This document shows, one piece after another, positions 4,719 to 38,856 of a stretch of DNA of 64,000 nucleotides. The notes under the pieces were generated by a model, which was not told where the DNA came from, did no database searches, and was given only the letters and a program-made list of their open reading frames with translations. How positions within the stretch are numbered: the stretch's first letter is position 1; each line of letters opens with the position of its first letter. The stretch is from positions 5,270,001 to 5,334,000 of the forward strand of contig NZ_CP011773.1 in the NCBI RefSeq assembly GCF_001021385.1. The letters are read 5' to 3'. The DNA is from Mycobacterium sp. EPa45 (GTDB lineage: Bacteria > Actinomycetota > Actinomycetes > Mycobacteriales > Mycobacteriaceae). A program made the translations under genes and the position numbers.

Positions 4719-4753
4719 CCGGAGGACCCTTCTCTTCGTCTCACGGCGGATAA

Positions 4754-4772
4754 TACTGTAACTATTACAGTA
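4754..4772. promoter_or_regulatory. palindromic operator, TACTGTAA-CTA-TTACAGTA
   Basis: Perfect 8-3-8 inverted repeat that extends by AA/TT to 10-3-10 (4752-4774). It sits in the 64-bp gap between the divergent monooxygenase and LLM oxidoreductase genes, 2 bp from the GGAGG ribosome-binding site of the latter, a position suited to repression of both. It is the best-conserved of several copies in the window. The shape and spacing are typical of TetR-family operators; the binding protein is inferred, not shown. Confidence 0.8.
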
Positions 4773-4782
4773 TTGGAGGCGA

Positions 4783-5706
4783 ATGCGGTACACCCTGGAA
4801 TATCCGAGCGAACTGCCGACCGCACCCGACGACTCTCTCCTGCCGGATGTGATCCGCGACGTCGTGATGACCGCCGAAACCGCCGGGTTCTCCGCCATCG
4901 CGCTGTCCGAGCATCCCGCCCCGTCGTTGAAGTGGCGCCGCACCGGCGGCCACAACACCCTCGACCCCGTCGCGGCGCTGAGCTTCGTGGCCGGGGTCAC
5001 CACCGACATCAAGCTGATGACCAACCTGTTCGTACTGCCCTTCCGCAATCCCTATCTGTCCGCGAAGGCGTTGGGCAGCCTGGACATCCTGTCGGCCGGC
5101 CGACTCATCGCCGGTGTGGGAGCAGGTTATCTGCGCTCGGAGTTCGCCGCGCTCGGCGTCGATGTCGACGACCGTGCCCACCTGCTCGACGAGGCGTTGG
5201 CCGCTCTGCGGTCCATCTGGACCGATCCCGAAAAGCCGGTCAGTGGTGTGGGATTCACGGCGATCAGCCCGATGTGGCTACAGCCACCGGTGCAGCGGCC
5301 TCATCCGCCGATCTGGATCGGGGGGAACACGGCGGCTGCAGCACGCCGCGTCGTCGAGTATGGCAGCGGTTGGATGCCGCTCATCGCGCCCGCGGGTATG
5401 GCGTCAGCGATCGGCACGGCAGCGCCGGAGGACGCTGCCGCGTTCGGCGCCCGGCTGGGCCGGCTGCGCGAGGCGATGGCCGACGCGGGACGGGACCCGG
5501 AATCCCTTGACGTTCAGGTGATCTGCCCGTGGATTGACCTCGACGACGACTCCTCACTGCGCCAGGCACAGGACACGCTGAGTGAACTCGCCGGGTACGG
5601 CGCGAACTGGGCCGTCGCGCACGTCGACGAAGCCACCCCGGCGGCGGCCGTTGCATACATCTCCGCCTTCGGCGAGGCCGTCATCGCCGGCAACTTGGTC
5701 GATTGA
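4783..5706 (+). CDS. LLM-class F420-dependent oxidoreductase
   Basis: A 307-residue luciferase-like monooxygenase-fold protein. Typical segments are the N-terminal AETAGFSAIALSEHP, the TNLFVLPFRNPYLSAKALGSLDILSAGRL stretch (read here in two parts), GVGAGYLRSEFAALG and PPIWIGGN. In mycobacteria most such proteins use coenzyme F420 rather than FMN and reduce or oxidise alcohols, ketones or acyl groups. The ATG is preceded by GGAGG at a good distance. The gene shares its promoter region with the monooxygenase and precedes the Rieske oxygenase, so it is likely part of the same catabolic route. Confidence 0.9.
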   Translation: MRYTLEYPSELPTAPDDSLLPDVIRDVVMTAETAGFSAIALSEHPAPSLKWRRTGGHNTLDPVAALSFVAGVTTDIKLMTNLFVLPFRNPYLSAKALGSLDILSAGRLIAGVGAGYLRSEFAALGVDVDDRAHLLDEALAALRSIWTDPEKPVSGVGFTAISPMWLQPPVQRPHPPIWIGGNTAAAARRVVEYGSGWMPLIAPAGMASAIGTAAPEDAAAFGARLGRLREAMADAGRDPESLDVQVICPWIDLDDDSSLRQAQDTLSELAGYGANWAVAHVDEATPAAAVAYISAFGEAVIAGNLVD

Positions 5707-5815
5707 CTCGCAGCATGGTGCGGGTATATCGGGCGGCCTCGAGCCGGCGAATCGCGTCGAGTTCGTTGCTGACGCCGACCAGCCGGTGCATTCATCGACT
5801 TCTTTCTGAAAGCAC

Positions 5816-5834
5816 TACTGTAATACGCTTAGTA
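5816..5834. promoter_or_regulatory. degenerate copy of the TACTGTAA operator
   Basis: The left half-site TACTGTAA is perfect; the right half, GCTTAGTA, matches TTACAGTA at 4 of 8 positions. It lies 27 bp upstream of the Rieske oxygenase start, in the 154-bp gap after the LLM gene. It may be a weak operator or a decayed site. A nearby AGGAGG precedes the GTG start of the oxygenase. Confidence 0.45.
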
Positions 5835-5860
5835 CCGCTTCACGATGAGGAGGATCGCCC

Positions 5861-6865
5861 GTGAAAGTTCCCTTCACCTGGAAGGTCACCGGCTGGTTCA
5901 TGATCGGCTGGTCGGCGGAATACGCCGTCGGGGATGTTCGGTCGCTGCGCTATTTCGGTGAGGACCTGGTGATCTATCGCGACTCCTCCGGCGAATTGCA
6001 CGTGCTGGAGGGACACTGCAAGCACCTGGGCGCACACATCGGGCACGGCGGCACCGTTGTCGGCGACTGCGTCGAGTGTCCGTTTCACGGCTGGCGGTGG
6101 GGACCGGACGGCGCCAACACCCACATTCCCTACCAACCGGACCGGCCCAACAAAGGTCTTCGGCTGCGCGCCTACCCGGTTGCCGAGCAGCACGGCTGCA
6201 TCTTTCTGTGGCACCATCCGGGCGGCGAGCCACCGCGGTGGGAGCTCCCGGATATCTTCACCAAGTTCCCACAGTTCACCGCCGCCCCCGACGAGTACTA
6301 CCGGCCGTACCCGGAATTCTCGCGGTTCGCCGAGAACGAGCCTGTGCATCCGCAGATCGTGGCCGAAAACGGACCGGACAGTGCGCATTTCCACTACGTC
6401 CACAAAGCGACGGTCACACCGGTGTGCCTGGAATGGGAAGCGGTCGACGAAGAGTGGCGGTTCCTCACCGGCTGGCCGGACGCCCGCAGCGATGACCCGA
6501 ACAAGATGGCGCTGCGCATCCACAGCCACTTCTCCGGGCTCGGTTTCGCGATCAGCGCGTTCGAAGGCTCGTCGAACCATCGGTTGATCTTCGCCTGCAC
6601 GCCGGTCGACGACGAGGTGTCCAATATGTTCTATTCGATCTGGTGGCCGCGGACAGCCGGCGACACCAGTGACATTCCGCCCGATGACGTTCGCGAACGG
6701 GTGGAGAAGCAATACCTCGGTACGGTCTGGGACGACCTTGAGATCTGGCGCTACCAGAAGTATGTCGAGCACCCGGCGCTGGCCAAGGTCGATGCGAAAC
6801 CGTATATGGCGATGCGTGAGTGGGCGTTGCAGTTCTATGACGTGTCGGCGGCGACGCCGGTATGA
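5861..6865 (+). CDS. Rieske non-heme iron oxygenase, KshA-like terminal subunit
   Basis: A 334-residue oxygenase. The Rieske [2Fe-2S] ligands are C53-x-H55 and C73-x-x-H76. The mononuclear-iron facial triad shows as the D173-x-x-H176-x4-H181 motif, within ENGPDSAHFHYVH. Length and motif spacing resemble 3-ketosteroid 9-alpha-hydroxylase oxygenase (KshA) and related mycobacterial ring hydroxylases, but the substrate is not fixed by this. No reductase gene is adjacent, so electrons must come from elsewhere. GTG start after a strong AGGAGG; the stop overlaps the next gene by 4 nt. Confidence 0.93.
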   Translation: MKVPFTWKVTGWFMIGWSAEYAVGDVRSLRYFGEDLVIYRDSSGELHVLEGHCKHLGAHIGHGGTVVGDCVECPFHGWRWGPDGANTHIPYQPDRPNKGLRLRAYPVAEQHGCIFLWHHPGGEPPRWELPDIFTKFPQFTAAPDEYYRPYPEFSRFAENEPVHPQIVAENGPDSAHFHYVHKATVTPVCLEWEAVDEEWRFLTGWPDARSDDPNKMALRIHSHFSGLGFAISAFEGSSNHRLIFACTPVDDEVSNMFYSIWWPRTAGDTSDIPPDDVRERVEKQYLGTVWDDLEIWRYQKYVEHPALAKVDAKPYMAMREWALQFYDVSAATPV

Positions 6866-7467
6866 AATCCGAACTCGTCAACCCGGCGCACACCGTCGTC
6901 GTCACCCAGGAATTGCAGGGCGCCGTCGTCGGCCCGAACGCCGGACTGGCCACACTGGCCCGGGAAGCCGAGCGGGAGGCACTGCCCAACATTGCGCGCC
7001 TGCTGCCGGTGGCCCGCGCGGCGGGTGTGAAAGTGGTGCACTGCCTGGTGCAACGCCGCCCAGACGGGCTGGGCGCCAACCACAACGCCAAGCTGTTCGC
7101 GATCGGCGCCAGTGGTGTCGACATCGCGCCGGGCAGCCCCGGCGCCACGCTGTTGCCCCAATTCGGTCCCGAGCCAAGCGATCTCATGCTCAGTCGCTGG
7201 CACGGTCTCGGTCCGATGGGCGGTACCGATCTCGATGCCATCCTGCGCAACCTCGGGGTGACGACCATCGTGGCCGTCGGGGTGTCCCTCAACGTCGCCA
7301 TCCCGAATCTGGTGATGGATGCCGTCAACGCCGCCTACCGGGTCGTCCTGCCGCGCGACGCCGTGGCCGGCGTGCCCGCCGAGTACGGCGCGGCCATCAT
7401 CGACAACACGCTCGGACTGCTGGCCACCATCACCACCACCGACGAGCTGATCGAGGCTTGGCAGTGA
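6862..7467 (+). CDS. isochorismatase-fold cysteine-hydrolase-like protein lacking the catalytic Cys
   Basis: A 201-residue isochorismatase-fold protein, translationally coupled (ATGA) to the Rieske oxygenase. The fold signature VTTIVAVGVSLNVAIPNLVMDAVNAAYR is clear, but the residue that is the nucleophilic Cys in amidase-type members is Ala146. The N-terminal Asp position is Glu17 (TQELQ instead of D-x-Q) and the usual Lys is probably Arg112. Isochorismatases proper also lack the Cys, so the protein could catalyse a non-covalent hydrolysis or act as a binding protein. Its function in this operon is unknown. Confidence 0.8.
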   Translation: MKSELVNPAHTVVVTQELQGAVVGPNAGLATLAREAEREALPNIARLLPVARAAGVKVVHCLVQRRPDGLGANHNAKLFAIGASGVDIAPGSPGATLLPQFGPEPSDLMLSRWHGLGPMGGTDLDAILRNLGVTTIVAVGVSLNVAIPNLVMDAVNAAYRVVLPRDAVAGVPAEYGAAIIDNTLGLLATITTTDELIEAWQ

Positions 7468-7476
7468 TCGGTGGCG

Positions 7477-8499: not shown

Positions 8500-8694
8500 T
8501 GGGTTCCTTGGTCTCGAGACGGGTCGCGAACAGATCCATGACGCGTGCGTCAGCGCACAATTACGAAACTTTGCCTGACCACACGCAAGTGTGCAGAACG
8601 ATTCGCGAAAATTGCATGCGGACTTACCGCCAACATTTCCCGAATGTGTTTGCTGTAGCGGACTTGTCGCGCCGCTAACAACAGTCGTGTACGC

Positions 8695-8713
8695 TACTGT
8701 AATATTTACAGTA
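8695..8713. promoter_or_regulatory. palindromic operator, TACTGTAA-TAT-TTACAGTA
   Basis: Perfect 8-3-8 inverted repeat, ending 22 bp before the GTG of the P450 gene and about 10 bp before its AGAGGGG ribosome-binding site. It lies at the P450 end of the 236-bp gap between the divergent esterase and P450 genes. The rest of that gap shows no gene. Same motif as the copies near 4.76, 12.39 and 18.47 kb. Confidence 0.8.
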
Positions 8714-8735
8714 GGTCACTAGCAGAGGGGCTGCC

Positions 8736-9953: not shown

Positions 9954-9956
9954 CGG

Positions 9957-10805
9957 TCAGCCCTTCCAGGGTTTGGCTTTGACGAATCCGCCTGCGTCGA
10001 TGCGCATTTGAGTCCCGGTGATATAGCGCGAATCATCGCTGGCCAGGAACACCACCGCGGCCGACACATCGTAGGGTTCGATATAGGGCACCGGCATCGC
10101 CTGCATCGCGGGGAAGGACAGCTCTGCGTCGTCGCGCGTCGGCGAGGCCAGATCGGGCCGGAACACCCGGTACATGCCCTCGTTGTGCAGCATGTCGGTG
10201 TTGACGTTGGTCGGGTGCAGTGCATTGACCCGAATCATTCTCTTGGCCAATTGGATTGACAGGTCGTTGACGTAATGGGCGACCATCTGCTTGGCCAGGC
10301 TGTAGGCCGACCCGCCGGGGCCCTGGTTACTGGCACTGCCCAGTTGGGCGGCAAGGGAGCCGGTCGCGATCACCGACGCGCCGTCGTTGAGGTGCGGCAT
10401 GCTGGCCTGGATCACGTTGAACACCCCGACCAGGTCGGTGTCGATGGTGTCCGACCATGACTGTAAGGTCTGCCCCTTGCCCATCGGGCAGATGCCGGCG
10501 TTGGCAACGACGATGTCCAGGTGGCCCATCTCCTCGACGGCGTCGGCGATCGTCTGCCACACCGCACTTCGCTCACGGACGTCGCAGATCGCGGAGAAGC
10601 ACCGCCCGCCTTCCTTTTCCACCAACAGCGCGGTCTCGTCGAGGTCCTCCGGGCGCGCCAGCGGATACGTGTTGCCATCGAGGTCGGCGCAGATGTCGAA
10701 GATGATGACGTCCGCGCCTTCGGCGGCCAGCGCGATCGCGTGTGACCGACCTTGCCCACGGGCAGCTCCGGAGACGACGGCAACCTTGTTGTCCAACTTT
10801 CCCAT
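9957..10805 (-). CDS. mycofactocin-coupled SDR family oxidoreductase
   Basis: A 282-residue short-chain dehydrogenase. The glycine-rich motif GAARGQGRSHA, the long insert after beta-strand 2 (DICADLDGNTYPLARPEDLDET), the NAG motif and the S..Y-S-L-A-K active-site segment are those of the mycofactocin-coupled group (carveol-dehydrogenase-like), which keeps NAD tightly bound and passes electrons to mycofactocin. It lies downstream of the aldehyde dehydrogenase with a clear AAAGGAAG site, so alcohol to aldehyde/ketone to acid oxidation is a consistent reading. The start is the ATG of MGKLDNK; the longer frame overlaps the dehydrogenase gene. Confidence 0.92.
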   Translation of the reverse strand: MGKLDNKVAVVSGAARGQGRSHAIALAAEGADVIIFDICADLDGNTYPLARPEDLDETALLVEKEGGRCFSAICDVRERSAVWQTIADAVEEMGHLDIVVANAGICPMGKGQTLQSWSDTIDTDLVGVFNVIQASMPHLNDGASVIATGSLAAQLGSASNQGPGGSAYSLAKQMVAHYVNDLSIQLAKRMIRVNALHPTNVNTDMLHNEGMYRVFRPDLASPTRDDAELSFPAMQAMPVPYIEPYDVSAAVVFLASDDSRYITGTQMRIDAGGFVKAKPWKG

Positions 10806-10821
10806 TGGGCTTCCTTTCCGA

Positions 10822-12348
10822 TTAGGACTGGCGTGGCGCGCGGAACGCCAGGGTCTTCGTCTCCAGGTACTGCTGGAATCCCTCGATGCCGCACTGGCGT
10901 CCGACGCCGCTGTTCTTGAAGCCCCCGAACGGTGCGTCGGCACCGTAGAACATTCCCCCGTTGACACCGATCGAGCCGGTACGAATCCGTCGCGCGACCG
11001 ACATGCCCCGATCGATCGACCCGGACAGCACCGCGCCCGCCAACCCGTAGGCGCTGTCGTTGGCGATGCGAATTGCCTCCTCGTCGTCGCGGAACGGCAG
11101 CACCACCAGAACAGGCCCGAAGACCTCCTGCTGTGCGATCGCGGATCGGGAGTCGGCACCGACGATCACGGTGGGTGCGACGAAGTGCCCGCCCGCGAGA
11201 TGATCCGGCAGACCCTCGAAACTGCTCCCCCCAACCAGGATTTCGGCACCGTCGCAGCGAGCCTGGTCGCATGCGTCCAGGACCCGTTGCTTCTGCTTCG
11301 CGCTGACGACAGGACCGACGAACGTGTCCGGCAGCGCCGGGTCGCCCACCGGCACGGCTTGATAAGCGGCAGTGATGGCGGCCAGCGCCTCGGGGTACAG
11401 CGATTCGTGAATCACCAGCCGGGTGGTCAGCGCGCAAGCCTGGCCGGCATGCACGCACACCCCCACGGCTCCGCCGATGACGTGGGCCGGGTTGGCGTCG
11501 TCGAGCACGATCAGGGCGGACTTGCCACCCAGTTCCAAGAACGTGCGCTTCATCGTCTCGGCGCCGTCGCGCATCAACTGCTTGCCGACCGCAGTGGATC
11601 CGGTGAATGACACCAGGTCCACCCGCGGGTCGGTGGCCAGCAGTCCGGCGACCGCGTTGTCGGGCGTGGGCACCACGCCCAGGACGCCGGGCGGGATGTC
11701 GGTCTGCTCGGCGACCAGCCGGCCGATGCGGGTGGCGTTCCACGGGGTGTTCGGATCGGGCTTGAGCACGACGGTGTTGCCGGTGGCCAGCGCAGGGCCG
11801 AGTTTGTTGAGGATTACTTCGATCGGGTAATTCGACGGCGTGATGGCCGCAACCACGCCGACCGGCTCCTTGACGACGGTTCGCACGTTGCGCTCCCCGA
11901 ACATTCCACCGCCGTCAAGCCTTCGCTCCCAGTCGAATTGGTCGATCAGCCGGCTCGGATAGCGCAACGAGTCGGCCAGTGGCCACTCGAGCTGAGCGTC
12001 ACCGGTCGACATCACCGGGCAGCCGACTTCGGCGACGAGTTCCTCGCGCAGTTCTTCCTTCTCCGACTCCAGCGCGGACTGCAGCTGAGCGAGGCAGCGC
12101 TTGCGCAGTTCTCGATTGGTGGACCAGTCGGTGTCGTCGAACGCCCGCCTCGCCGCGGCGATCGCACGTTCCATGTCGGCGTGGCCGCCGGCGGCGGTGA
12201 CCCCGAGCACCCGGCCGGTGGCCGGACTCACGTTGTCGAACTCGGTACCGTCGGCCGCCGCGCACAACTTTCCGTCGATGAGCATCCGCGGCTCGGCCCT
12301 TCCCGCCGCGCGCAACCCCAGCTCGACGCTCGTATCCTGCTGGCCCAC
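10822..12348 (-). CDS. aldehyde dehydrogenase (NAD(P)+)
   Basis: A 508-residue aldehyde dehydrogenase. The transition-state Asn is in TPSNYP (N173), the general base in LELGGKS (E272) and the nucleophile in GQACALTTR (C305). The protein oxidises an aldehyde to an acid, here probably the product of the SDR encoded 16 bp downstream. The longer open frame (to about 12435) runs through the operator, so the GTG of VGQQDTSVEL, preceded by AGAAGGTGG, is chosen. It is divergent from a CoA transferase gene across a TACTGTAA palindrome. Confidence 0.93.
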   Translation of the reverse strand: MGQQDTSVELGLRAAGRAEPRMLIDGKLCAAADGTEFDNVSPATGRVLGVTAAGGHADMERAIAAARRAFDDTDWSTNRELRKRCLAQLQSALESEKEELREELVAEVGCPVMSTGDAQLEWPLADSLRYPSRLIDQFDWERRLDGGGMFGERNVRTVVKEPVGVVAAITPSNYPIEVILNKLGPALATGNTVVLKPDPNTPWNATRIGRLVAEQTDIPPGVLGVVPTPDNAVAGLLATDPRVDLVSFTGSTAVGKQLMRDGAETMKRTFLELGGKSALIVLDDANPAHVIGGAVGVCVHAGQACALTTRLVIHESLYPEALAAITAAYQAVPVGDPALPDTFVGPVVSAKQKQRVLDACDQARCDGAEILVGGSSFEGLPDHLAGGHFVAPTVIVGADSRSAIAQQEVFGPVLVVLPFRDDEEAIRIANDSAYGLAGAVLSGSIDRGMSVARRIRTGSIGVNGGMFYGADAPFGGFKNSGVGRQCGIEGFQQYLETKTLAFRAPRQS

Positions 12349-12378
12349 CGACGCACCACCTTCTGTTCTGGGACGGTC

Positions 12379-12397
12379 AACTGTAAAGGTTACAGTA
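12379..12397. promoter_or_regulatory. palindromic operator, AACTGTAA-AGG-TTACAGTA
   Basis: Inverted repeat with a perfect 7-bp arm (ACTGTAA/TTACAGT) around a 3-nt spacer; only the outermost left base departs from TACTGTAA. It sits 31 bp upstream of the aldehyde dehydrogenase start, between that gene and the divergent CoA transferase gene, so it could control both. Confidence 0.75.
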
Positions 12398-12488
12398 GTA
12401 TTCTGCGGTGGCGTTGGGCTGATTCGCTCGCCCACGGCGGCCGGGGTGTGAGAATGTGGTTACCACCGCCGGGCGAAAGGGACTGGAC

Positions 12489-13712
12489 TTGATCAAGGTG
12501 ATGGACGGCATCCGGGTACTGGAGGTCGCACAGTTCACGTTCGTACCGGCGGCCGGCGCGATCCTGGCCGACTGGGGCGCCGACGTCATCAAGGTCGAGC
12601 ACCCGGTCCGCGGCGACACCCAGCGCGGCTTCATCAACATGGGCGGATTCCAGCTCGACCCCAACCGGCACCCGCTGATCGAGCATCCCAACCGCGGCAA
12701 GCGCAGCGTCGGCATCGACGTCACGACGCCGGAGGGCCAGGAGGTGCTCTACGAGATCGCCAAGACCGCCGACGTCTTCCTGACCAACTACATGCCTGCG
12801 CAGCGCCAGAAGAACAAGTTCGACATCGAGCACATTCGCGCGGTGAACCCGAACATCATCTACGCCCGCGGCAGTGCCTACGGCGACAAGGGACCCGAGC
12901 GTCTGGTCGGCGGGTTCGACGGGACCGCGTTCTGGACCCGCAGCGGCGTCGGCCATGCCCTGACGCCCGAGGAGCTCGGTGGTGCTCTGCCGCAGGGCAT
13001 TCCGGCGTTCGGCGATTCCATCGGCGGGATGAACATCGCCGGTGGCATCTCCGCGGCGCTGTTCCACCGGGAACGCACCGGCGAAGCGGTCGAACTCGAC
13101 GTGTCCCTGCTGAGCACCGCCTGGTGGGCGGCGGGCGCCAGCGTCACCCAGGGCATGGAAACCGGCGAGACCATGCGGTCGCTGATGCCCGGCACCACGA
13201 CATCGGTCAACCCGTTCATGGCCAACTACCTGACCTCCGATGGCGGCACGATCAACCTGTGCATCGTCAGTCCGACCGGCTATATCCGCGATACGTGGGA
13301 GCACCTCGGTCTGCCCGAGCTCGCCGACGATCCCCGGTTCTCCGAGGTGATGCCGCTGATCCAGAACGCCGAAGAAGGGGTCCGACTCATCACCGAGGCG
13401 ATCGCCGCCAAGCCGTTCGAGTACTGGCGCCAGCACCTCAAGACGATGAAGGGCCAGTGGGCGCCGTTCCAGAGCCTCGTCGATCTGGCCTCCGATGAGC
13501 AGGCCGTCGCCAACGACATGATTGTCGAGGTGGACGCCGCCGACGGCGGGGCGCCGTTCAAAGTGGTGCGCGGGCCGGTGCAGTTCAATCACGAGCCGCT
13601 GGAAACGACTCGCGCACCGCAGGCCAGTGAGCATACCGAACTAGTGCTGATGGAAGTCGGCATCGACTGGGATCGCATTGAGGCGCTCAAGGAGTCGGGC
13701 GCGATTGCCTAG
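12489..13712 (+). CDS. CaiB/BaiF family CoA transferase
   Basis: A family III (CaiB/BaiF) CoA transferase of about 407 residues. Typical parts are MDGIRVLEVAQFTFVPAAGAILADWGADVIKVEHP, GKRSVGIDVTTPEGQ and the GMNIAGGISAALFHRERTGEAVELDVSLL core (quoted in pieces across residues 5-230). It moves CoA between an acyl-CoA donor and an organic acid, activating a carboxylic acid without ATP. The start is uncertain: a TTG 8 nt after GAAAGG is chosen, with GTG at 12456 and ATG at 12501 as alternatives. The opposing aldehyde dehydrogenase may make the acid that is activated. Confidence 0.9.
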   Translation: MIKVMDGIRVLEVAQFTFVPAAGAILADWGADVIKVEHPVRGDTQRGFINMGGFQLDPNRHPLIEHPNRGKRSVGIDVTTPEGQEVLYEIAKTADVFLTNYMPAQRQKNKFDIEHIRAVNPNIIYARGSAYGDKGPERLVGGFDGTAFWTRSGVGHALTPEELGGALPQGIPAFGDSIGGMNIAGGISAALFHRERTGEAVELDVSLLSTAWWAAGASVTQGMETGETMRSLMPGTTTSVNPFMANYLTSDGGTINLCIVSPTGYIRDTWEHLGLPELADDPRFSEVMPLIQNAEEGVRLITEAIAAKPFEYWRQHLKTMKGQWAPFQSLVDLASDEQAVANDMIVEVDAADGGAPFKVVRGPVQFNHEPLETTRAPQASEHTELVLMEVGIDWDRIEALKESGAIA

Positions 13713-13938
13713 GGGCGCGCCAACCGGAACGACCGAGTCGTCCGCCCCGTAAATGACCAGGAACGCCCCCTTCTGCATCCTGATCAACGTCGCACGGGGG
13801 AACAGATAGTTGGTCCGATATTTGGACGTCATGATCGGGTATTCATACCGCTGTCGGCGATAACATACTCGAGCCATCACTTCTAGTCGTCGCCCGTGGC
13901 GGCGATCGTTGCCGGTGGCAAGCGAGGGAGGTGGACGT

Positions 13939-16188: not shown

Positions 16189-16263
16189 CCGACATCACTT
16201 CGCGTACCAAATATCTGTTCCAGACTACCACCCGGGGGACGCCCTCGCGTTCAACGATTCTGA

Positions 16264-18444: not shown

Positions 18445-18455
18445 ACAGGCCAGGA

Positions 18456-18474
18456 TACTGTAAGTGTTACAGTT
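18456..18474. promoter_or_regulatory. palindromic operator, TACTGTAA-GTG-TTACAGTT
   Basis: Inverted repeat with a perfect 7-bp arm around a 3-nt spacer; only the last base departs from the consensus. It lies in the 69-bp gap between the divergent molybdoenzyme and thiolase-like genes, 12 bp from the former's start. It probably controls both directions. Confidence 0.78.
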
Positions 18475-18513
18475 CGTTTGCCCGTACGGCGGATCCCGAG
18501 AGGAAGACCATCG

Positions 18514-19659: not shown

Positions 19660-19662
19660 GCC

Positions 19663-20844: not shown

Positions 20845-20864
20845 GAGCCGGCGGAACGTTTCAC

Positions 20865-20893: not shown

Positions 20894-20899
20894 CAAAGC

Positions 20900-22129: not shown

Positions 22130-22233
22130 CCGTAAAAACTGAAATCTGCTATGCACCTTGATAATTCCACAGTGACACCACCCACGACCAACGTCGCCGC
22201 TACGCAGAAGATCTTAAGGGCCTCACTGGCTGA

Positions 22234-24638: not shown

Positions 24639-24647
24639 CGCAGCTCC

Positions 24648-27082: not shown

Positions 27083-27089
27083 TGCGGTC

Positions 27090-28136
27090 CTAGGCGGTTT
27101 CGCGGTCGGCGAGGATGTACGCAATCTGCTTGGCGCTGGCGCCGGGATCACCGCCGGCCAGCGGCCAGCCCCTGGCCCGAACCAGATAGGCGGTCGCGGC
27201 CGCCTCCGACGACACCCCGAGGCCACCCTGGATGTGCACGGCCATCGTGGCCGCCTTGGACGCTTCTTCAGCCATGAACACGAACGCCGACGGCGCCAGT
27301 TCGGGCCGCGCCTCGGGCTCGTTGTCCAGGAACCACGCCGCCCGCCGAGCCAGATTACGGCCACCTTCGACGGTGATCACCATGTTCGCCAACGGGTGGG
27401 AGATCGCCTGGAGGGTGGCGATGGGCACCCCGAGGGTATAGCGGGACTTGGCGAACTCGGCGGCGATGGTCATGGTCTCCTCAACGAGACCGACGAGCGC
27501 GGATGCGGTCAGCAGCCGCCATTCGTCCAGTGCCCGAGCGTATGCGGCGAGCGCGTCGGGCCCGCTGCCCAGCACCGTGCGGCTGTCGGCGGCCGCGGGG
27601 TCGACCCAGGCCATCGGAAGCCGGCCGATGTTGTCGACCTTTGCCGGCCGCGTCCCGAACGTCAGGAGCACCACGTCCTCGCCATTGGGGCCGTCGCGGA
27701 CGATGATGTGGTCGGCGATCGAACCCGTCGGGACCAGCCGCACTCCCGCGACACTGGCCAGGGAGGCGTCGAGCCCGGCGATCCGCTTACCGCTCATCAC
27801 TTCGTCGGTGAGCGCGCCCAACCGGGCCAGCAGCCGGGCCGCACATACGTGGTCGATCCACGGCACCGGTGCCAGGAAACGCCCCAACTCCTCGGCCACC
27901 AACGTCAGGTCCACCAGGGTGGCACCGTCACCGCCCGCCGATTCGGGGACCGCCATGGTGGTTGCGCCCATGGCGCACAGCCGTTCCCACAGGCTCTTGT
28001 CGAACCCGGTGGCCTCAGCCGCCCGCACCGTCTCGATGGTGCTGTGGGTTTTGAAGAACTGCCGGTAGGCGGTCTGCAGATCTTTGTGGTCGTCGGTGAG
28101 GCTGTAGTCCAGCCTGCGCAATTCGTAGCGGTCCAT
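27090..28136 (-). CDS. acyl-CoA dehydrogenase family protein (short, probable heteromer subunit)
   Basis: A 348-residue acyl-CoA dehydrogenase-fold protein, shorter than typical FadE enzymes and without the GSD-type FAD loop or YEGT motif, but with the N-terminal helical domain (WERLCAMGATTMAVPESAGGDGATL) and the C-terminal IQGGLGVSSEAAATAYLVRA. In actinobacterial steroid and cholate pathways such short members pair with a full-length FadE to make one active site. It abuts the two longer acyl-CoA dehydrogenases and may partner either. ATG start, 0-bp gap to the amidohydrolase stop. Confidence 0.9.
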   Translation of the reverse strand: MDRYELRRLDYSLTDDHKDLQTAYRQFFKTHSTIETVRAAEATGFDKSLWERLCAMGATTMAVPESAGGDGATLVDLTLVAEELGRFLAPVPWIDHVCAARLLARLGALTDEVMSGKRIAGLDASLASVAGVRLVPTGSIADHIIVRDGPNGEDVVLLTFGTRPAKVDNIGRLPMAWVDPAAADSRTVLGSGPDALAAYARALDEWRLLTASALVGLVEETMTIAAEFAKSRYTLGVPIATLQAISHPLANMVITVEGGRNLARRAAWFLDNEPEARPELAPSAFVFMAEEASKAATMAVHIQGGLGVSSEAAATAYLVRARGWPLAGGDPGASAKQIAYILADRETA

Positions 28137-28964
28137 TCAGCGCTCCCTGAAGAAGAAATCGTTGGCGTTGTTGTAGAGATAGTTGTCGAGGACTTCGGGC
28201 GGCAGGTCCAGCGCCTCGGCTTCCGGGACCACGCGATGCAATTTGAGCACCGGCCAGTCGGAACCGAACATCACCTTGTTCGGCCCACGCGTTCGCATGT
28301 AGTGAAGCAAGCTGTCCGGCAGCCGTTTCGGTGACCATGCCGAGGTCATCAGGCGCAGATTCTCGTACTTGATCATCAACCGGATGGCCACCTCCCACCA
28401 GGGATCGGCGCCGTGGATCATGCACAGTCGCAGTTCGGGGAACCGCACACACACCCGGTCCAGGTGGATCGGATTCTGAACCTCGCCCGGGATCGGCGGC
28501 CCCGGCAGTCCGGTGTTCAAGCACAGCGGCAGGTCCAGCTCGGCGCACTTGGTGTACAGCGGGTAGTAGACGGCATCGCTGGGCGGATATTGCGCGTCAC
28601 CCCAAAAGCTCGGTCCCACAGCGGCGTACACGACCGGTAGGTCGGCGACGATCGCGGTCAGCTCACGTAGGGTGGGCATCGGTCTGAGCAGATTCATGCC
28701 ACCCATGGCCAGTGCGAACCGGTCCGGCCTGGCTTGCGCGAATTTGCGCGCGGTGACGTGCGGCTTGACGATGTTGTCCATCAGGATGGCCTTCTGCACG
28801 CCGTGGGCGTCCATCTCGTCGAGCAGCTCACCGAGGTCGACCGGGGCGAACATCGACTTGGGACCCTTGAAGTAGTCGTCGCGGACCTTGAGCATCCAGG
28901 TCGGCTGCTGCTCCGCCTCGCCGAAGTGAACGTTGATCAGTCCGTCGATCACCTTGCGCGTCAT
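28137..28964 (-). CDS. amidohydrolase family protein (short form)
   Basis: A 275-residue amidohydrolase-2 family protein, shorter than the other two in the operon. Seen: IDGLINVHFG at the N-terminus (a single His at the metal site), LCLNTGLPGPP, LCMIHGADPWWEVA and the late Asp motif FGSDWP. The start overlaps the acyl-CoA ligase stop (ATGA), which indicates tight co-translation. Function within the pathway unknown; decarboxylation or C-C hydrolysis are possibilities for this family. Confidence 0.88.
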   Translation of the reverse strand: MTRKVIDGLINVHFGEAEQQPTWMLKVRDDYFKGPKSMFAPVDLGELLDEMDAHGVQKAILMDNIVKPHVTARKFAQARPDRFALAMGGMNLLRPMPTLRELTAIVADLPVVYAAVGPSFWGDAQYPPSDAVYYPLYTKCAELDLPLCLNTGLPGPPIPGEVQNPIHLDRVCVRFPELRLCMIHGADPWWEVAIRLMIKYENLRLMTSAWSPKRLPDSLLHYMRTRGPNKVMFGSDWPVLKLHRVVPEAEALDLPPEVLDNYLYNNANDFFFRER

Positions 28965-30571
28965 GGCAACGAAACCTTGCTGTCGGCAATCTGTTTGGCC
29001 CAGCGATAGTCGGCCTTGCCGTTACCCAGGCGCTTCACCTGTTCGACGACGATGAACTCTTTCGGGGCTTTGTAGCGGGCGAGCTGTTCGGTGCAGTGCT
29101 CATGCAGTACCTCGGGATCGACGTCGTTGCGCAGCGCGATCAGAGCCACTATCTCCGACCCCCATCGCTCACTTGGGCGGCCCACGACCAGGGCGTCGGT
29201 GACGGCAGGATGCGCGCGTAGCACCTCTTCGACCTCCTCGACGAAAACCTTCTCTCCACCGGTGTTGACCACCAGCGAGTCCCGGCCGAGAAGCCGCAGC
29301 GTCCCGTCCGGCGCCAGCGAGCCGCGGTCACCGGAGATCACCACCCGGGCACCGTCGACTTCGGGGAAGGTCTTTCGGGTGGCGTCGGCGTCGTCGAAAT
29401 ATCCCAGCGGGATCCGGCCAGCGCGGGCCACCCAGCCGACCTGATCCTCACCGGCATCCAGAAATCGGCTGTAGTCCTCGGCGAGAACCAGTGCGCCCTC
29501 GCGCAATTCGAAGGTGTCCTTGTGGTCACCGCGCATGCTGCGGCCGAACCCGACGTTGCCGGTCTCCGAGGACCCGTAGCCATTGATCAGGATGATGTTG
29601 GGAAGCAGCTCCAGCAACGCGTGCTGGTGCTTGAGGTTGGTCGCCGCTCCCCCGGTGGCCAGGGCGAACAACGAGGACAGGTCGTAGTCGCCGCGCCGCA
29701 GCTCGTCGACCAGCGGGGCGGCATAGGCATCGCCGACCATCGTCATCATCCCGACCTTGTGCCGCTGCGCGGTGGACAGTACGTGCTGCGGGTCGAATTT
29801 CGGTGAGTCGTAGAGCACCACCGTCTGTCCGTTGAGGACGGCGGCGAACGCCGTCCACATTCCGGCGGCGTGCATCAGCGGGGACACGGCGAACCACGGC
29901 GCGCCAGGAGTGCCGAGCTTGTCGTGGATATCGGTGACCGACTCATGGTCGGCCCCGTTCATCGAGACGGCGTAGGTGTCGGCCTGGCGCCACATCACGC
30001 CTTTCGGTCGACCCGTGGTGCCGCCGGTGCAGATCATCAGGACATCATCCGGTGACGGCTCGATGTCCTGATCCCGATCACCCTGCGCCAGCGCATCTTC
30101 CAGATCGATCGCGCCCGGCAGGGCTGCTTCGTCGCTGCCGTCCTCGATCGAGATCAGCAGCTCGGCGCTGTCGGGCGGCAGGACATCGGCGAACTTGGCG
30201 CCCAGCGACCGGTGGTAGATGACCGCACGCGGCTTGACGTACGCGAGCAGTTCGGCGACTTCGCGGGGCGTGTAGTGGTGGTTGACGTTGACCGGCACGA
30301 CCCGGCCCTTGAGACAACCGATCACCATGTCCGGATACAGGTCGTTGTGCATGATCAACGCAACCCGGTCCTGGCCACACTCCCAGTTCTCGAGGTCGGC
30401 CCGTTCGCGCTGCGCGCCGAAGCCCTTGCCCGCCAGAAAGTTCGCCAGCCGCCGCGTCCGATCAGCCGAATCGGCGAAGGTGCTGGTGCGCTCGCCGCAG
30501 ATCGTCATGGGCCGATCGGGGATGACCTCGGCGATGGCGTCCAGGACGGCGCCGATCGTCCATTCGGGCAC
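28961..30571 (-). CDS. acyl-CoA ligase (FadD-type, class I adenylate-forming)
   Basis: A 536-residue ligase. The ATP-binding A3 loop is CTGGTTGRPKGV, the aromatic/AMP motif is NGYGSSETGN, the A8 hinge region is GRDSLVVNTGGEKVFVEE and the catalytic Lys lies in GNGKADYRWAK. It forms an acyl-adenylate and then an acyl-CoA thioester, and resembles the FadD17/FadD19-type ligases that activate large cyclic substrates. The GTG start lies 3 nt after the upstream stop. It is the ATP-dependent entry for the long operon, in parallel with the CaiB-type transferases elsewhere. Confidence 0.93.
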   Translation of the reverse strand: MPEWTIGAVLDAIAEVIPDRPMTICGERTSTFADSADRTRRLANFLAGKGFGAQRERADLENWECGQDRVALIMHNDLYPDMVIGCLKGRVVPVNVNHHYTPREVAELLAYVKPRAVIYHRSLGAKFADVLPPDSAELLISIEDGSDEAALPGAIDLEDALAQGDRDQDIEPSPDDVLMICTGGTTGRPKGVMWRQADTYAVSMNGADHESVTDIHDKLGTPGAPWFAVSPLMHAAGMWTAFAAVLNGQTVVLYDSPKFDPQHVLSTAQRHKVGMMTMVGDAYAAPLVDELRRGDYDLSSLFALATGGAATNLKHQHALLELLPNIILINGYGSSETGNVGFGRSMRGDHKDTFELREGALVLAEDYSRFLDAGEDQVGWVARAGRIPLGYFDDADATRKTFPEVDGARVVISGDRGSLAPDGTLRLLGRDSLVVNTGGEKVFVEEVEEVLRAHPAVTDALVVGRPSERWGSEIVALIALRNDVDPEVLHEHCTEQLARYKAPKEFIVVEQVKRLGNGKADYRWAKQIADSKVSLP

Positions 30572-30574
30572 CGG

Positions 30575-31783
30575 TCAGGCCGCCGACGACACGGACACGC
30601 CGAGTAGATCCAATGCGTTGTCCCGCATCACCTTCCGGGTGTCTTCGGCACTGAATTCGGGGAACTGCGGAATGTCGGCGGTGAAACTCATCGGATCGGC
30701 CAGCCCCTCGCCGTGCGGCCAGTCCGAGCCGAACAAGATCTTGTCCACGCCGATGGTGTCGGCCAGCAGCTTGACGTCGTCCTCGTAGTACGGCGCGATC
30801 CAGACGTTGTTCTTCAGCTGCGCGACCGGATCCTCCTTGAAATGGTACGGCGCGGTATTGGCCGCCTTCTTCAATCGCTTGATCAGCCGGTAGACGAAGT
30901 ACGAACCGTTCTCGATGCTGGCCGCCTTGAGCTTCGGATGGCGGGTGAACACCTGGTGCACGATCATCGACGCCATCGAATCGTGGATGGCGCGGTCGTC
31001 GAGCAGCACCTGATCCAGCGGATCCTTTTTGCCGAATCCCTCGAACGTTGCCTTGCCGCCCCACTGCGCCGCGATCGCGAGGTAACCACTGTCGGACAGG
31101 TGGAAGACCACGGGAACCCCCGCCTCGGCCAGCCGAGCCCACACCGGGTCGTGCAGCGGGTCGCCGAGCGAGCGCGGTTTGACCACTCCAGGCACCGGAG
31201 CCGGCCGCACGCAGACGATCTTCGCGCCGCGGCTCAGCACGAACTCGACCTCCGCGACCGCGGCGTCCGGGTCGGCCAGTGAGATGATGGGCGCCGAGAT
31301 GAACCGGTGGTCGGGCCGGTCGAAGCCCCAGTCCTCGTCGAGCCATAGGTTGAAGGCATGCACCGAGGCCATGGTCGCCTCGACGTCGTGCTTGAGCGCC
31401 TCCTCGACGCCGCACGCGAATGTCGGCAGCATGAACACGGTTTCGAGGTTCTGTTTGTCCAGGATCTTCAGCCGGGCGTCCCGGTTCTGGTATTCGGGGT
31501 GGTCGCTGAGCCGGTCGACCTTCATCAGCGACGCCGGGTCGACACCTTCGGGGATCTCACCGCGGAACAACAGATCCAGGCATCCTGGCTCGATGATCGG
31601 GTCGAACGTCGGGTTGGGGATGAAGTGGTTGACGACACCACCGATCACCGCGAAGGTGCGCTTTCCCTCCGTGAGCATCTGCACGCCACGGCGCTTGAAC
31701 TCCTTGGGCAGATGCCGGGTGAACGAATCGGTCGGCTCGTAATAGTGGTTGTCGACGTCAATCGCCTTGTAGTCCAGAGTCAT
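30575..31783 (-). CDS. amidohydrolase family protein (amidohydrolase-2)
   Basis: A 402-residue TIM-barrel protein with IDVDNHYYEP (metal-binding region), VVFHLSDSGY, IENGSYFVYRL and FGSDWPHGEGL. Its architecture and FIPNPTF segment match the amidohydrolase at 24.6-25.9 kb, so the two are probably paralogues with related substrates. The ATG start is followed closely by the ligase gene downstream. Three such proteins among beta-oxidation genes is unusual and suggests C-C bond hydrolysis or decarboxylation of CoA- or acid-linked rings. Confidence 0.9.
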   Translation of the reverse strand: MTLDYKAIDVDNHYYEPTDSFTRHLPKEFKRRGVQMLTEGKRTFAVIGGVVNHFIPNPTFDPIIEPGCLDLLFRGEIPEGVDPASLMKVDRLSDHPEYQNRDARLKILDKQNLETVFMLPTFACGVEEALKHDVEATMASVHAFNLWLDEDWGFDRPDHRFISAPIISLADPDAAVAEVEFVLSRGAKIVCVRPAPVPGVVKPRSLGDPLHDPVWARLAEAGVPVVFHLSDSGYLAIAAQWGGKATFEGFGKKDPLDQVLLDDRAIHDSMASMIVHQVFTRHPKLKAASIENGSYFVYRLIKRLKKAANTAPYHFKEDPVAQLKNNVWIAPYYEDDVKLLADTIGVDKILFGSDWPHGEGLADPMSFTADIPQFPEFSAEDTRKVMRDNALDLLGVSVSSAA

Positions 31784-31796
31784 CGGTGTCGTCCTC

Positions 31797-32639
31797 TCAC
31801 GTCAGGGGCGGGAAGTTCGGGGGCCGCTTCTCGAAGAACGCGGTGATTCCTTCGATGAAATCGGGGCGCTGCATGGATTCGTGCATGAGCGTCTCGGCTC
31901 GCCGGCTGGCGTCTTCCGCCTCGCGCAGTGCGTCGCCATAGACCTGCCGCTTGATGACAGCCAACGAGCTCGGCGCGCAGTTGGCGGCGATTTCCTCGGC
32001 GTATTCAATTGCGCGGCTCAGCAACTCGTCAGGCGGCACAACTTCTTTGACCATGCCGAGCTCGAACGCCTCCTCGGCGTAGAACACCCGGCCGCTCATC
32101 AGCAGATCCAGCGCCGCGCCCCAGCCGACGACTTTCGGCAGAATCCACGAGATGCCGTACTCGGCGATCAGGCCGCGGCGCGCGAACGACGTGGTGAACT
32201 TGGCGCCGGCCGCGGCGAATCGAACGTCGCAGAACAACGCCTGGGTGAGCCCGATGCCGGCACAGGCTCCGTTGATCGCGGCGATCACCGGCTTGGTGAC
32301 GGTGGTGACGAACAGCGGATGCCGCTCCCCCACCATCTTGGTCAGGTCAGCCTCGCCGGCACTGTCGACACTGGCCGAACTGATCGACGCCAGGTCGCCC
32401 ATATCGGCGCCCGCACAGAAAGCCCGCCCACGTCCGGTCACCACGATGGCCCGCACATTCGGATCGGCCTCGGCAGCATCCATGCCCGCATAGAAGCCGG
32501 CGGCCAGGCCACCGCCCCACCCGTTCATCCGTTCGGGACGGTTGAACGTCAGGACCGCCACCCCGCTGTCGAGCACTTCGTAGAGAACGGGCTTGGCAGC
32601 AGCGGACGTCGCGGTTAGGTCGGCCTTGGTTTCGGTCAC
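31797..32639 (-). CDS. enoyl-CoA hydratase/isomerase (crotonase) family protein
   Basis: A 280-residue crotonase-fold protein. The oxyanion-hole segments are RAFCAGADMGDL and NGACAGIGL; the second catalytic-Glu region reads RRGLIAEYGISW (Glu kept). Likely hydrates or isomerises an enoyl-CoA. The GTG start has CGGAGG well placed. It is the first gene after a 78-bp gap that holds a degenerate TACTGTAA site, so it may head its own transcript reading through to the P450 at 22.2 kb. Confidence 0.92.
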   Translation of the reverse strand: MTETKADLTATSAAAKPVLYEVLDSGVAVLTFNRPERMNGWGGGLAAGFYAGMDAAEADPNVRAIVVTGRGRAFCAGADMGDLASISSASVDSAGEADLTKMVGERHPLFVTTVTKPVIAAINGACAGIGLTQALFCDVRFAAAGAKFTTSFARRGLIAEYGISWILPKVVGWGAALDLLMSGRVFYAEEAFELGMVKEVVPPDELLSRAIEYAEEIAANCAPSSLAVIKRQVYGDALREAEDASRRAETLMHESMQRPDFIEGITAFFEKRPPNFPPLT

Positions 32640-32685
32640 CTAGGGGTACCTCCGAGAATGGCGCGCCAACATGCGGATTTGTCCA

Positions 32686-32704
32686 TACTGTACACCTATC
32701 GGTA
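32686..32704. promoter_or_regulatory. degenerate copy of the TACTGTAA operator
   Basis: TACTGTAC-ACC-TATCGGTA: left half 7 of 8, right half 5 of 8 identical to TACTGTAA-N3-TTACAGTA. It lies 47 bp upstream of the enoyl-CoA hydratase start at 32639, in the only sizeable gap of the long minus-strand gene run. If functional, it would place the ligase, dehydrogenases, amidohydrolases and P450 under the same regulator. Confidence 0.45.
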
Positions 32705-32717
32705 TCCCCTTCCGCAA

Positions 32718-33725
32718 TCAGTGTTCGATGAGGCCGAGCCGCCGGTATGCCTTCTCGATCTGAGTCTTTCCAGCGTCGGGCAATTCAGTCTGCGGCGGGC
32801 GCGAATGCGGATAGCCACCGATCGGCAATCCCAGCAAGGACGCGGCGTACTTGAACGCGCCGCCCCAGTGGGTGAAGTAGTCGGGACGACCCGGGTAGCA
32901 GGTGAACCAGTTGCCCATGTCGATACCGAACTGATCGAGTCCGGACCGCTCGGCGTAGTCCATCGCATCGATGAGTTTGTCGGCCCAGACCAGCTCCCAG
33001 TACTCGGAGATGATCGGCCGCTGCGGCGTTTCGTTCAGATAGCCCGCGGTCCCCAGCTGGGCGGGGCCGACGATCCCGGCTCGCAACCAGCCCGCGCGGT
33101 ACACCGTGAGATCGCATTCCCAGATCACCAGGCCCGGCGCCAGCTCGTGCAGCAACCGGGTATTTCCCGGACGGAAGGCACCCTCCTTCGTCGCGCACAC
33201 CGCAGGAATCTCGGCGTAGATACGTGCCCCCTCCGCGGGCGTCAGCACGTATCCCGACGATGGCGAGTTGAACATGCCGAGCGCGATGTCGGTGCGATCG
33301 GCGACGTAGTGAAAGAAGCGCAGCACGCCCTCACCGCCATGGGTTTCCATCATCGGCGTCTGGATATAGGCGATGTCGGCGCCCGCTTTCTGGGCATGCC
33401 GGGTGAGTTCCAGGCAGTCCTTGGCGGCCGTGGCCGCGGTGCAGGCTTGGATGACGACGTCGGGGTTGGCGCGCCGCCCCTCCTCAATTGCGACTTCCAG
33501 CAACCGCTTTCGCTCATCGAGCGTCAGCGACCAGAACTCGGCGATACCGCTGGTGCACCACAGCATCGGATGCTTGAGCTCCCCGACGCAGTACCGCACC
33601 AATGCCCGATAGGCGTCCCAATCAATCTCGTCACCGTCGGTTCCGGAAAACGGTGTGTAGAGGCTGTCGCCGATACCGTGCAGTCCGGTGCGTGCCCAGT
33701 CCCGGGCATCGCGCGCTGTGGCCAT
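32718..33725 (-). CDS. dihydrodipicolinate synthase family aldolase/lyase
   Basis: A 335-residue DapA/NanA-fold protein. The Schiff-base lysine is K180 in CATKEGAF; the usual active-site Tyr of the YNxP motif is Phe152 (MFNSPSSG). At about 335 residues it is longer than DapA (about 295) and close in size to the hydratase-aldolases of aromatic-ring degradation, which cut a pyruvate unit from an unsaturated side chain. Retro-aldol cleavage is thus a reasonable guess. The ATG at 33725 is preferred to the GTG at 33728 because of the GAGGAG spacing. Confidence 0.87.
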   Translation of the reverse strand: MATARDARDWARTGLHGIGDSLYTPFSGTDGDEIDWDAYRALVRYCVGELKHPMLWCTSGIAEFWSLTLDERKRLLEVAIEEGRRANPDVVIQACTAATAAKDCLELTRHAQKAGADIAYIQTPMMETHGGEGVLRFFHYVADRTDIALGMFNSPSSGYVLTPAEGARIYAEIPAVCATKEGAFRPGNTRLLHELAPGLVIWECDLTVYRAGWLRAGIVGPAQLGTAGYLNETPQRPIISEYWELVWADKLIDAMDYAERSGLDQFGIDMGNWFTCYPGRPDYFTHWGGAFKYAASLLGLPIGGYPHSRPPQTELPDAGKTQIEKAYRRLGLIEH

Positions 33726-33734
33726 CACTGCTCC

Positions 33735-34532
33735 TCAGGTGAAGTCGGACCCGCCGTCGACGTTGATGTTGGCGCCGGTCATATACGAGTTGCGTTTGGA
33801 GGCAAGGAAGGCGACGACGGGACCGATCTCGTCGGGCAGCCCCGCGCGCGGCAGATGCGCCGGATGGCCGAAATGTTCGTCGATGGCGGCCATCAGCGCG
33901 TAGGGATCGTTGCCGTCGACACCGACCGACTCGGCCCAGCCGGTGAGCGCTTCCGAGGCGATGCTGCCCGGTGAGACGACGTTGACCAGGATCTCATCGG
34001 ACGCGAGGTGCAGCGACAGGTTCTTGGAGACGCTGGCGACCATGGCCTTGGCTGCGGTGTATGCCGACAGCCGCGGGCTCTGCCGTTGCGTGGACTGCGC
34101 GGCGAAGTTGACGATGCGCGCCCACTCCGCGGCCCGCAGCAGTGGTAGCGCCGCCCGCACACAACGGACCATGCCCAGAGCGCCCTCGTCGATCGCGGTG
34201 CGCCACTGGTCGTCGGTCAGGTCGTCGAAAGTGCCTTGCACACTTGGCCCGACGGCATTGATGAGGATGTTGAGCCGGCCGCCCCACCGCTGCCGGATCT
34301 GGGCGAACACGTGCTGAACCTGGGTGTCGTCGCCGGTGTCGGCCACCAGTCCGACGGCATCCGGGCTGCCTCGCCCGCTCAGTTCTTCGGCCGCAGCGTC
34401 GAGCACCGCAGCCGTACGGCCGATCAGCGCGATGCGGGCGCCGTCGTCGGCCAGGCATCGCGCCGCGGCCAGTCCCATTCCGCGACCGCCGCCGACCACG
34501 ACGGCGGTCGCGTCACCGAGCCCGAGATCCAC
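33735..34532 (-). CDS. short-chain dehydrogenase/reductase
   Basis: A 265-residue SDR. Cofactor motif GGGRGMG at 14-20, NAVGP in place of NNAG, active-site S-x10-Y-x3-K in QSTQRQSPRLSAYTAAKAM, and the C-terminal SYMTGANINVDGG. Probably oxidises a hydroxyl or hydroxyacyl-CoA. The GTG start lies 12 nt after the enoyl-CoA hydratase remnant and the gene is followed by the aldolase gene 9 nt downstream, so all are in one transcript. Confidence 0.92.
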   Translation of the reverse strand: MDLGLGDATAVVVGGGRGMGLAAARCLADDGARIALIGRTAAVLDAAAEELSGRGSPDAVGLVADTGDDTQVQHVFAQIRQRWGGRLNILINAVGPSVQGTFDDLTDDQWRTAIDEGALGMVRCVRAALPLLRAAEWARIVNFAAQSTQRQSPRLSAYTAAKAMVASVSKNLSLHLASDEILVNVVSPGSIASEALTGWAESVGVDGNDPYALMAAIDEHFGHPAHLPRAGLPDEIGPVVAFLASKRNSYMTGANINVDGGSDFT

Positions 34533-34544
34533 GACCGGTTGGGC

Positions 34545-34904
34545 TTACGTACCGGTCCAATTCGGCGCACACTTCTCGGCGAACGCGACGGCACCTTCGC
34601 GGGCGTCGTTGGAGGTGAACACCGGAATGATGAGTTCCATCTGCTTCTTCCACATCTCCGCCCGGCTACAGTCGGCGGATTGCAGCAGCACGTCTTTGGT
34701 CGCGGCGAGGGCGAGCGGGCCGTTCGCGCTGATCTTGCCGGCCAGTCCGATCGCCCCGGCCAGGTCGGGGTCGCTGTCGAGCTCGTCGATCGCGTCGGCA
34801 AGTCCTCGGCTAACAGCAAGATTCACCGCATTGCGCGCTTCGGGTCGATTGATCGTGATGATCAGTTTCCGGCCTTGGCGTTCCCGCAGCACTGCGTCCG
34901 ACAC
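34545..34904 (-). pseudogene. enoyl-CoA hydratase remnant with internal in-frame deletion
   Basis: An open frame of 119 residues from a GTG placed 6 nt after GGAGGAG (an upstream GTG at 34919 is possible). Residues 1-50 match the N-terminus of crotonase-family proteins (LIITINRPEARNAVN, DELDSDPDLAGAI) and the rest matches their C-terminal third (LAGKISANGPLALAATKDVLL, EGAVAFAEKCAPNW). The middle of about 120-130 residues, with both oxyanion-hole loops and the catalytic Glu, is absent without a frame change. It is first after a TACTGTAA-type operator. It is most likely a non-catalytic remnant still translated at the head of the operon. Confidence 0.75.
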
Positions 34905-34947
34905 CCGCGGCTCCTCCACTGTCTGGTTCGCTGGTATCGGTAAAACC

Positions 34948-34966
34948 TACTATAGGCTTTACAGTA
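34948..34966. promoter_or_regulatory. palindromic operator, TACTATAG-GCT-TTACAGTA
   Basis: Right half perfect, left half 6 of 8 identical to TACTGTAA. It lies in the gap between the divergent enoyl-CoA hydratase remnant (head of the long minus-strand operon) and the TetR gene at 35067, so it could serve as autoregulatory site for that TetR protein and as operator of the operon. Confidence 0.65.
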
Positions 34967-38831: not shown

Positions 38832-38856
38832 CCGGTCCCCTCATCAGGCCATCCTT

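Follow-up and report, generated by a model that had tools for sequence, protein, structure and literature searches.

A 64,000-nt stretch of the Mycobacterium sp. EPa45 genome (contig NZ_CP011773.1, positions 5,270,001 to 5,334,000; hereafter the window, numbered from its first base) carries five copies of a 19-bp palindrome, TACTGTAA-N3-TTACAGTA, at promoter gaps of a catabolic gene cluster, together with a gene for a TetR-type regulator that we term TetR_B (35067-35804). Based on sequence comparisons, we consider it probable that the five palindromes are operators of a TetR-type repressor, the product of 35067-35804, which would control its own gene and the catabolic genes. The sites themselves, their uniqueness within the genome, the fixed spacer, conservation at the same promoters, and co-occurrence with TetR_B are directly supported. 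The palindromes form a regulon signature that is real and conserved and for which TetR_B is a well-supported candidate regulator; the regulon would be a new and apparently undescribed one among TetR-type catabolic regulons.

The palindrome and its conservation at orthologous promoters

A search allowing up to three mismatches recovered the pattern at all five positions that a prior sequence-only reading of the window had listed (Table 1). Specifically, six matches were present in the whole window at this level, namely the five operators and 57178-57196 (three mismatches), and none arose in 100 dinucleotide shuffles of the window. Across the genome (6,177,406 bases in one contig), eight places matched with up to three mismatches and the reversed control pattern gave four, while the limit of two mismatches returned only five sites, all within 4754-34966 of the window. 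The three genomic places with three mismatches were not in excess over the reversed control; the five sites are far beyond chance, and the three-mismatch ones are not. Neither 57178 nor G000:4515090 was counted as a regulon member, three-mismatch matches being no commoner than the control genome-wide. The former, an operator-like site no better than chance, precedes an SDR gene outside the cluster.

The half-site counts in the sequence-only reading (8+8, 8+8, 7+8, 8+7, and 6+8) and its 10-3-10 extension of the first copy (4754-4772) proved correct. It had placed four of the five copies between divergent genes, an underestimate, as this arrangement holds for all five. It had also proposed comparing coding DNA with promoters, and in that comparison every one of the five sites was intergenic. 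The distance from operator to nearest start codon is about 10-100 bp, with the exception of the esterase on the left of operator 2, which may not be controlled, its start lying ~200 bp away.

The architecture of the operator was uniform. Information was limited to 16 of the 19 positions among 233 oriented sequences (up to two mismatches), the 3-nt centre and the flanks being unconstrained. Within 3.09 Mb of loci, 60 of which had been obtained via this or a similar pattern and the others via protein or coordinates, 74 distinct sites with at most one mismatch were present; the common 3-nt spacer noted by the sequence-only reading was found in 74/74, and spacers of 0-2 and 4-12 nt gave no site at the same stringency in these loci. 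In the operator of the TetR_B promoter, the right half is usually intact and the left half is weak (TAC[T/G]ATAG), such that affinity at the repressor's own promoter would be lower; the TACTAT of this weak half may double as a -10 element. A looser operator pattern was rejected, as its 9 forward matches were fewer than the 18 of its control.

Conservation extended throughout the genus. A site with at most one mismatch was present in 187 of 297 genus genomes, compared with 2 of 297 for the reversed control, and among the 30 loci returned by this genus site search an ortholog of a window protein adjoined the site in 29, with the P450a ortholog doing so in 19. In ten relatives for which the whole cluster was fetched, selected for known sites and TetR_B, operators 1, 3, 4, and 5 were at the same borders in every case and operator 2 in eight, so that 48 of 50 promoter slots retained the site. 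Both misses of operator 2 came from G053 and G093, the only two of the ten in which P450a sits directly behind the Rieske and isochorismatase genes, so that the promoter gap that P450a otherwise has to itself is gone. Additionally, ~7 kb of extra DNA parts the molybdoenzyme and thiolase genes in G292 (L239, L240), where each gene retains a site (three and one mismatches, respectively). The cases of G053, G093, and G292 fit operators that serve promoters.

The palindrome was also found outside the genus. Relatives of TetR_B (E <= 1e-60) were identified in 36 of 251 family genomes, 20 of them from the window's genus and 16 from six other genera. Sites with up to two mismatches occurred in all 16 of the latter (control, 4/16) and in 1 of the 19 genomes listed as lacking TetR_B (control, 6/19). 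These sites precede orthologs of P450a, the aldehyde dehydrogenase/CoA-transferase pair, the molybdoenzyme, P450b, the thiolase, and TetR_B. Five other-genera genomes have two TetR_B-like copies, located 16-24 kb apart.

There is next to no chance that the palindrome is a coincidence or a non-regulatory repeat, such as mobile element ends or a structural palindrome. Short palindromes are generally common, and nothing further speaks for this explanation; the empty shuffles, the lack of conservation in the flanks outside the 19 bp, and the orthologous placement speak against it, and conservation refutes it. The sequence-only reading, which had looked to orthologous promoters as a check on its candidate regulon, is well supported in this respect, the sites being kept there within the genus as well as outside it.

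TetR_B as the candidate binder

TetR_B has the features expected of a TetR-type regulator: an N-terminal helix-turn-helix (HTH) domain (PF00440, 46.1 bits versus a cut-off of 24) and a C-terminal ligand domain (PF02909, 51.8 bits versus 21). Its predicted model (pLDDT 75.8) matched ActR and TetR structures with TM-scores of 0.54-0.66 by query and 0.61-0.78 by target among the 50 matches listed, and HTH residues 51-61 did not vary among 100 copies from the genus and 20 from other genera. The nearest relative in the source genome is only 30% identical, and a plasmid search gave one TetR match, which covered 68% of the query at 43% identity.

The distribution of the sites followed that of TetR_B. 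With genus orthologs defined at E < 1e-65, sites were present in 186 of the 232 genomes with TetR_B and in 1 of the 65 without it (Fisher p ~1e-33, a value that overstates the association because the genomes are related). The sole site-bearing genome that lacks TetR_B is G115, and its 3-kb site locus contains no homologue of a window protein. By co-occurrence, the motif goes with the TetR gene pointed to by the sequence-only reading.

Two other regulators encoded in the window, a GntR/FCD protein (38031-38831) and a second TetR-type protein, TetR_A (1401-2009), were included in this comparison over the 297 genomes, and it is distinctly unlikely that one of these, or a TetR_B paralogue present in some relatives, binds the sites instead. 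Both are encoded in or beside the cluster and both correlate with the sites, the cluster being inherited as a block: GntR with sites in 93/98 genomes that have it and 94/199 that do not, and TetR_A in 54/61 and 133/236, respectively. However, among the 187 site-bearing genomes, 94 lack GntR and 133 lack TetR_A, as against 1 that lacks TetR_B, and 89 of the 186 site-bearing genomes with TetR_B have neither GntR nor TetR_A. Moreover, G067 and G098, which encode TetR_A and no TetR_B, have no site at one mismatch or fewer, and the 30% identity of the next relative of TetR_B in the source genome also argues against a paralogue there. The gap before the GntR/FCD gene has its own, different element, a perfect 22-bp palindrome (TGCTATCTTGTACAAGATAGCA, 38856-38877), which is likely the operator of the GntR/FCD protein itself.

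The promoter of TetR_B provides a further connection between regulator and site. Named loci were the best 80 of 287, 79 of which had enough upstream sequence; a site with up to three mismatches was present in 75 of these, one with four mismatches in two, and none in the remaining two. The reversed control gave 0/79 (never below five mismatches), and shuffles gave 1/1580. Furthermore, 46 genomes have TetR_B and no strict site, and in all 20 of those with listed coordinates a site with two to three mismatches was retained upstream of TetR_B. Finally, G171 (L161) keeps TetR_B and the site although the 20 kb around them lack the catabolic genes, which separates the site from the operon, although not formally from every other protein.

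Several observations weigh against assigning the sites to TetR_B. The regulator and the pathway genes are inherited together, as the 65 genomes without TetR_B also have no P450a of >48% identity (E <= 1e-100), and co-occurrence alone therefore cannot name the binder. Eleven genomes without strict sites encode paralogues of 45-62% identity; in 10 of these genomes the recognition helix is nearly that of TetR_B, and no match upstream of a paralogue has fewer than six mismatches, so that the recognition helix alone failed as a predictor of sites. Two genomes counted as TetR_B-positive, G161 and G205, encode proteins only 61-62% identical, for which the best upstream matches have six and eight mismatches. 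Of 22 examined TetR_B genomes that lack a strict site, 20 keep a weak one and two do not, and loci L130 and L132 have TetR_B without a site. For the 20 TetR_B-like copies of other genera, the best match at the copy's own promoter has up to three mismatches in only four, four mismatches in five, and more in 11. A second TetR, 48-54% identical to TetR_B, is located directly after P450a in five of the ten fetched relatives (L245, L247, L250, L251, and L254) and might use the sites alongside TetR_B or in its place. The structure model of TetR_B is itself only moderately confident, as its pLDDT indicates. With these points considered, TetR_B is still the best candidate binder of the palindromes, judging from the distribution of protein and site.

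The gene cluster and its predicted pathway

The genes adjoining the operators (Table 1) include two P450s, two CoA-transferases, three acyl-CoA dehydrogenases, and three amidohydrolases, as well as enoyl-CoA hydratases and thiolases, as identified by domain searches. From operator 5, the 12-gene run reads Ech2, SDR, a DHDPS-like aldolase, Ech1, an amidohydrolase, an acyl-CoA ligase, an amidohydrolase, two acyl-CoA dehydrogenases, an amidohydrolase, an acyl-CoA dehydrogenase, and P450b. Its genes are separated by short gaps or overlap, so that one operator may serve all of them.

Table 1. Operators and genes of the cluster, in window coordinates. Gene starts were taken from reading frames and homology; mismatches are to the palindrome.
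Feature	Position	Strand	Sequence or basis of assignment	Mismatches	Setting
Operator 1	4754-4772		TACTGTAACTATTACAGTA, 10-3-10	0	BVMO (-) / LLM oxidoreductase (+) gap
Operator 2	8695-8713		TACTGTAATATTTACAGTA	0	upstream of P450a (8736, +), esterase on left
Operator 3	12379-12397		AACTGTAAAGGTTACAGTA	1	aldehyde dehydrogenase (-) / CoA-transferase 1 (+) gap
Operator 4	18456-18474		TACTGTAAGTGTTACAGTT	1	molybdoenzyme (~18444, -) / thiolase-like (~18514, +) gap
Operator 5	34948-34966		TACTATAGGCTTTACAGTA	2, one weak half-site	large catabolic run (-) / TetR gene (+) gap
BVMO, Baeyer-Villiger-type flavin monooxygenase	3108-4718	-	domain search; start from sequence		
LLM oxidoreductase, F420-type luciferase-like	4783-5706	+	TIGR03619 above cut-off		
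Rieske oxygenase, distantly KshA-like	5861-6865	+	Rieske and KshA_C domains; KshA structure E 2e-33		
Isochorismatase-fold hydrolase	6862-7467	+	PF00857		
P450a, cytochrome P450	8736-9953	+	PF00067		
Mycofactocin-coupled SDR oxidoreductase	9957-10805	-	TIGR03971 above cut-off		
Aldehyde dehydrogenase	10822-12348	-	PF00171; relative of TIGR04284/Rv0768, below its cut-off		
CoAT1, CoA-transferase family III	12456-13712	+	PF02515		
Molybdopterin oxidoreductase	16264-18444	-	PF00384, PF01568, PF04879		
Thiolase-like / lipid-transfer protein	18514-19659	+	PF22691, PF00108		
CoAT2, CoA-transferase family III	19663-20844	+	PF02515		
12-gene contiguous run	22234-34919	-	gene calls, Pfam		from operator 5
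TetR_B, TetR-type regulator, predicted binder	35067-35804	+	TetR_N, TetR_C_1; co-occurrence with sites; TetR-fold model		

In the mechanism that we propose, a TetR_B dimer would bind the operators and thereby repress its own gene and ~20-25 catabolic genes, those downstream of the operators presumably being co-transcribed. Repression is the expected effect because the sites, located 10-100 bp ahead of start codons, would overlap promoters. Release of TetR_B would be brought about by a compound of the pathway, probably an early CoA-thioester or oxidised intermediate. Some TetR-family proteins activate, and we see a small chance that TetR_B acts at these sites as an activator or a dual regulator rather than as a simple repressor. 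Against this, the sites are 10-58 bp before most start codons, in divergent gaps, and one is at the regulator's own gene, which is the repressor layout described for KstR (PMC1995591) and KstR2 (PMC3068626).

The gene content suggests that the pathway under this repressor is an oxidative, CoA-dependent degradation of a cyclic hydrophobic compound. Such a compound would be oxidised by the two P450s, the Rieske oxygenase, the BVMO, and the mycofactocin-coupled SDR, loaded onto CoA by the acyl-CoA ligase and the CoA-transferases, and broken down through beta-oxidation, hydrolysis, and an aldolase step. Searches of solved structures for a clue to the substrate matched P450a, P450b, and the aldolase to general family members only, and the acyl-CoA ligase had no solved-structure match at E <= 1e-60.

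Within the run, Ech2 (34545-34919, 124 aa) is missing, in frame, ~0.4 kb from the central crotonase part, which is retained by five close relatives (L069, L070, L071, L238, and L240); little of the gene remains in L242 and L244. Weak relatives of the operator are located at 38879-38897 (five mismatches, before Ech4/GntR) and 32686-32704 (four mismatches, before Ech1), and many relatives have TACTGTATGGGTAACCGTA (three mismatches) at the position of the former. Additionally, a site with three mismatches lies 3982 bp before the window (G000:C1:5266019-5266037, L236), close upstream of an acyl-CoA carboxylase (carboxyltransferase) gene. It is kept in three genus relatives (L150, L155, and L161) and absent from four loci of other genera (L188, L196, L204, and L205), and the carboxylase gene is a possible extra member of the regulon.

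Comparison with known regulons

In fold, TetR_B is most like the TetR(D), ActR, and SimR repressors. The best structure matches of its model were ActR (2opt), TetR class B/D, and SimR, and TetR-class repressors, SimR, and ActR were also among its sequence matches. It differs from them in sequence, identity being only 20-26% across the 50 fold matches listed, and in being adjoined by catabolic genes.

Among published elements, motif X of Mycobacterium sp. VKM Ac-1817D comes closest, and that the present palindrome is the same element appears very unlikely. As described in PMC6593523, motif X is likewise a palindrome and precedes genes for P450, aldehyde dehydrogenase, and SDR proteins. Its candidate regulator is a TetR protein, the Rv0767c orthologue G155_05115, for which autoregulation was suggested, and the motif was linked to phytosterol. 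That description also sets it apart, motif X being placed at 14 operons (PMC6593523) as against only five sites in the genome analysed here. Binding regions of Rv0767c are reported in PMC10312376 to be enriched for GAC/GTC and depleted of TAA/TTA, whereas the palindrome contains both TAA and TTA. In PMC4482099, Rv0767c is one of the regulators described as conserved in a number of mycobacteria, and TetR_B is absent from 65 of the 297 genus genomes. The same source presents 30 mycobacterial TetR motifs as logos. Literature searches, made in an open-access library, brought up no account of such an operator, and the suggestion of the sequence-only reading that the regulon is undescribed stands within that scope.

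KstR and KstR2 are the closest parallels in organisation. KstR is a TetR-type repressor whose palindromic operator is found at its own promoter and in intergenic DNA next to many genes of lipid metabolism (PMC1995591), and the system described here resembles it in having a TetR-type regulator with a palindrome in both kinds of place. The present operator is 19 bp with a 3-nt spacer as compared with the 14 bp of the KstR operator, TnnAACnnGTTnnA, a motif that appears in PMC1995591 and has no exact match in the window; and, in relation to the cholesterol catabolism controlled by KstR, the KshA-like oxygenase of the cluster is only a distant relative of KshA. The regulon of KstR2 (HIP-CoA, steroid C/D rings) is described in PMC3068626 as small and local, with three operators near the regulator gene and conservation in actinobacteria, and the regulon proposed here is similarly local around a TetR gene and conserved beyond the genus. 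The window likewise contains no exact match to the KstR2 operator given there (AnCAAGnnCTTGnT); the core of this operator, CAAGnnCTTG, occurs once, at 30734, inside a coding region. The difference from both motifs that the sequence-only reading had noted thus holds against their published forms (PMC1995591 and PMC3068626).

We give roughly even weight to the broader proposal that mycobacteria and related bacteria have a third major catabolic regulon of the TetR type, distinct from those of KstR and KstR2, in which one repressor and one 19-bp operator would govern two dozen genes for degrading a cyclic natural compound, both in the majority of species of the genus and in six other genera. In mycobacteria, the operators of KstR and KstR2 served to list the genes of cholesterol catabolism. 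If the operator described here serves likewise, it defines a large and widely conserved pathway, supplies a reporter with which to look for the inducer, and identifies the repressor to be deleted, such that the question of what else environmental mycobacteria eat becomes testable at one locus.

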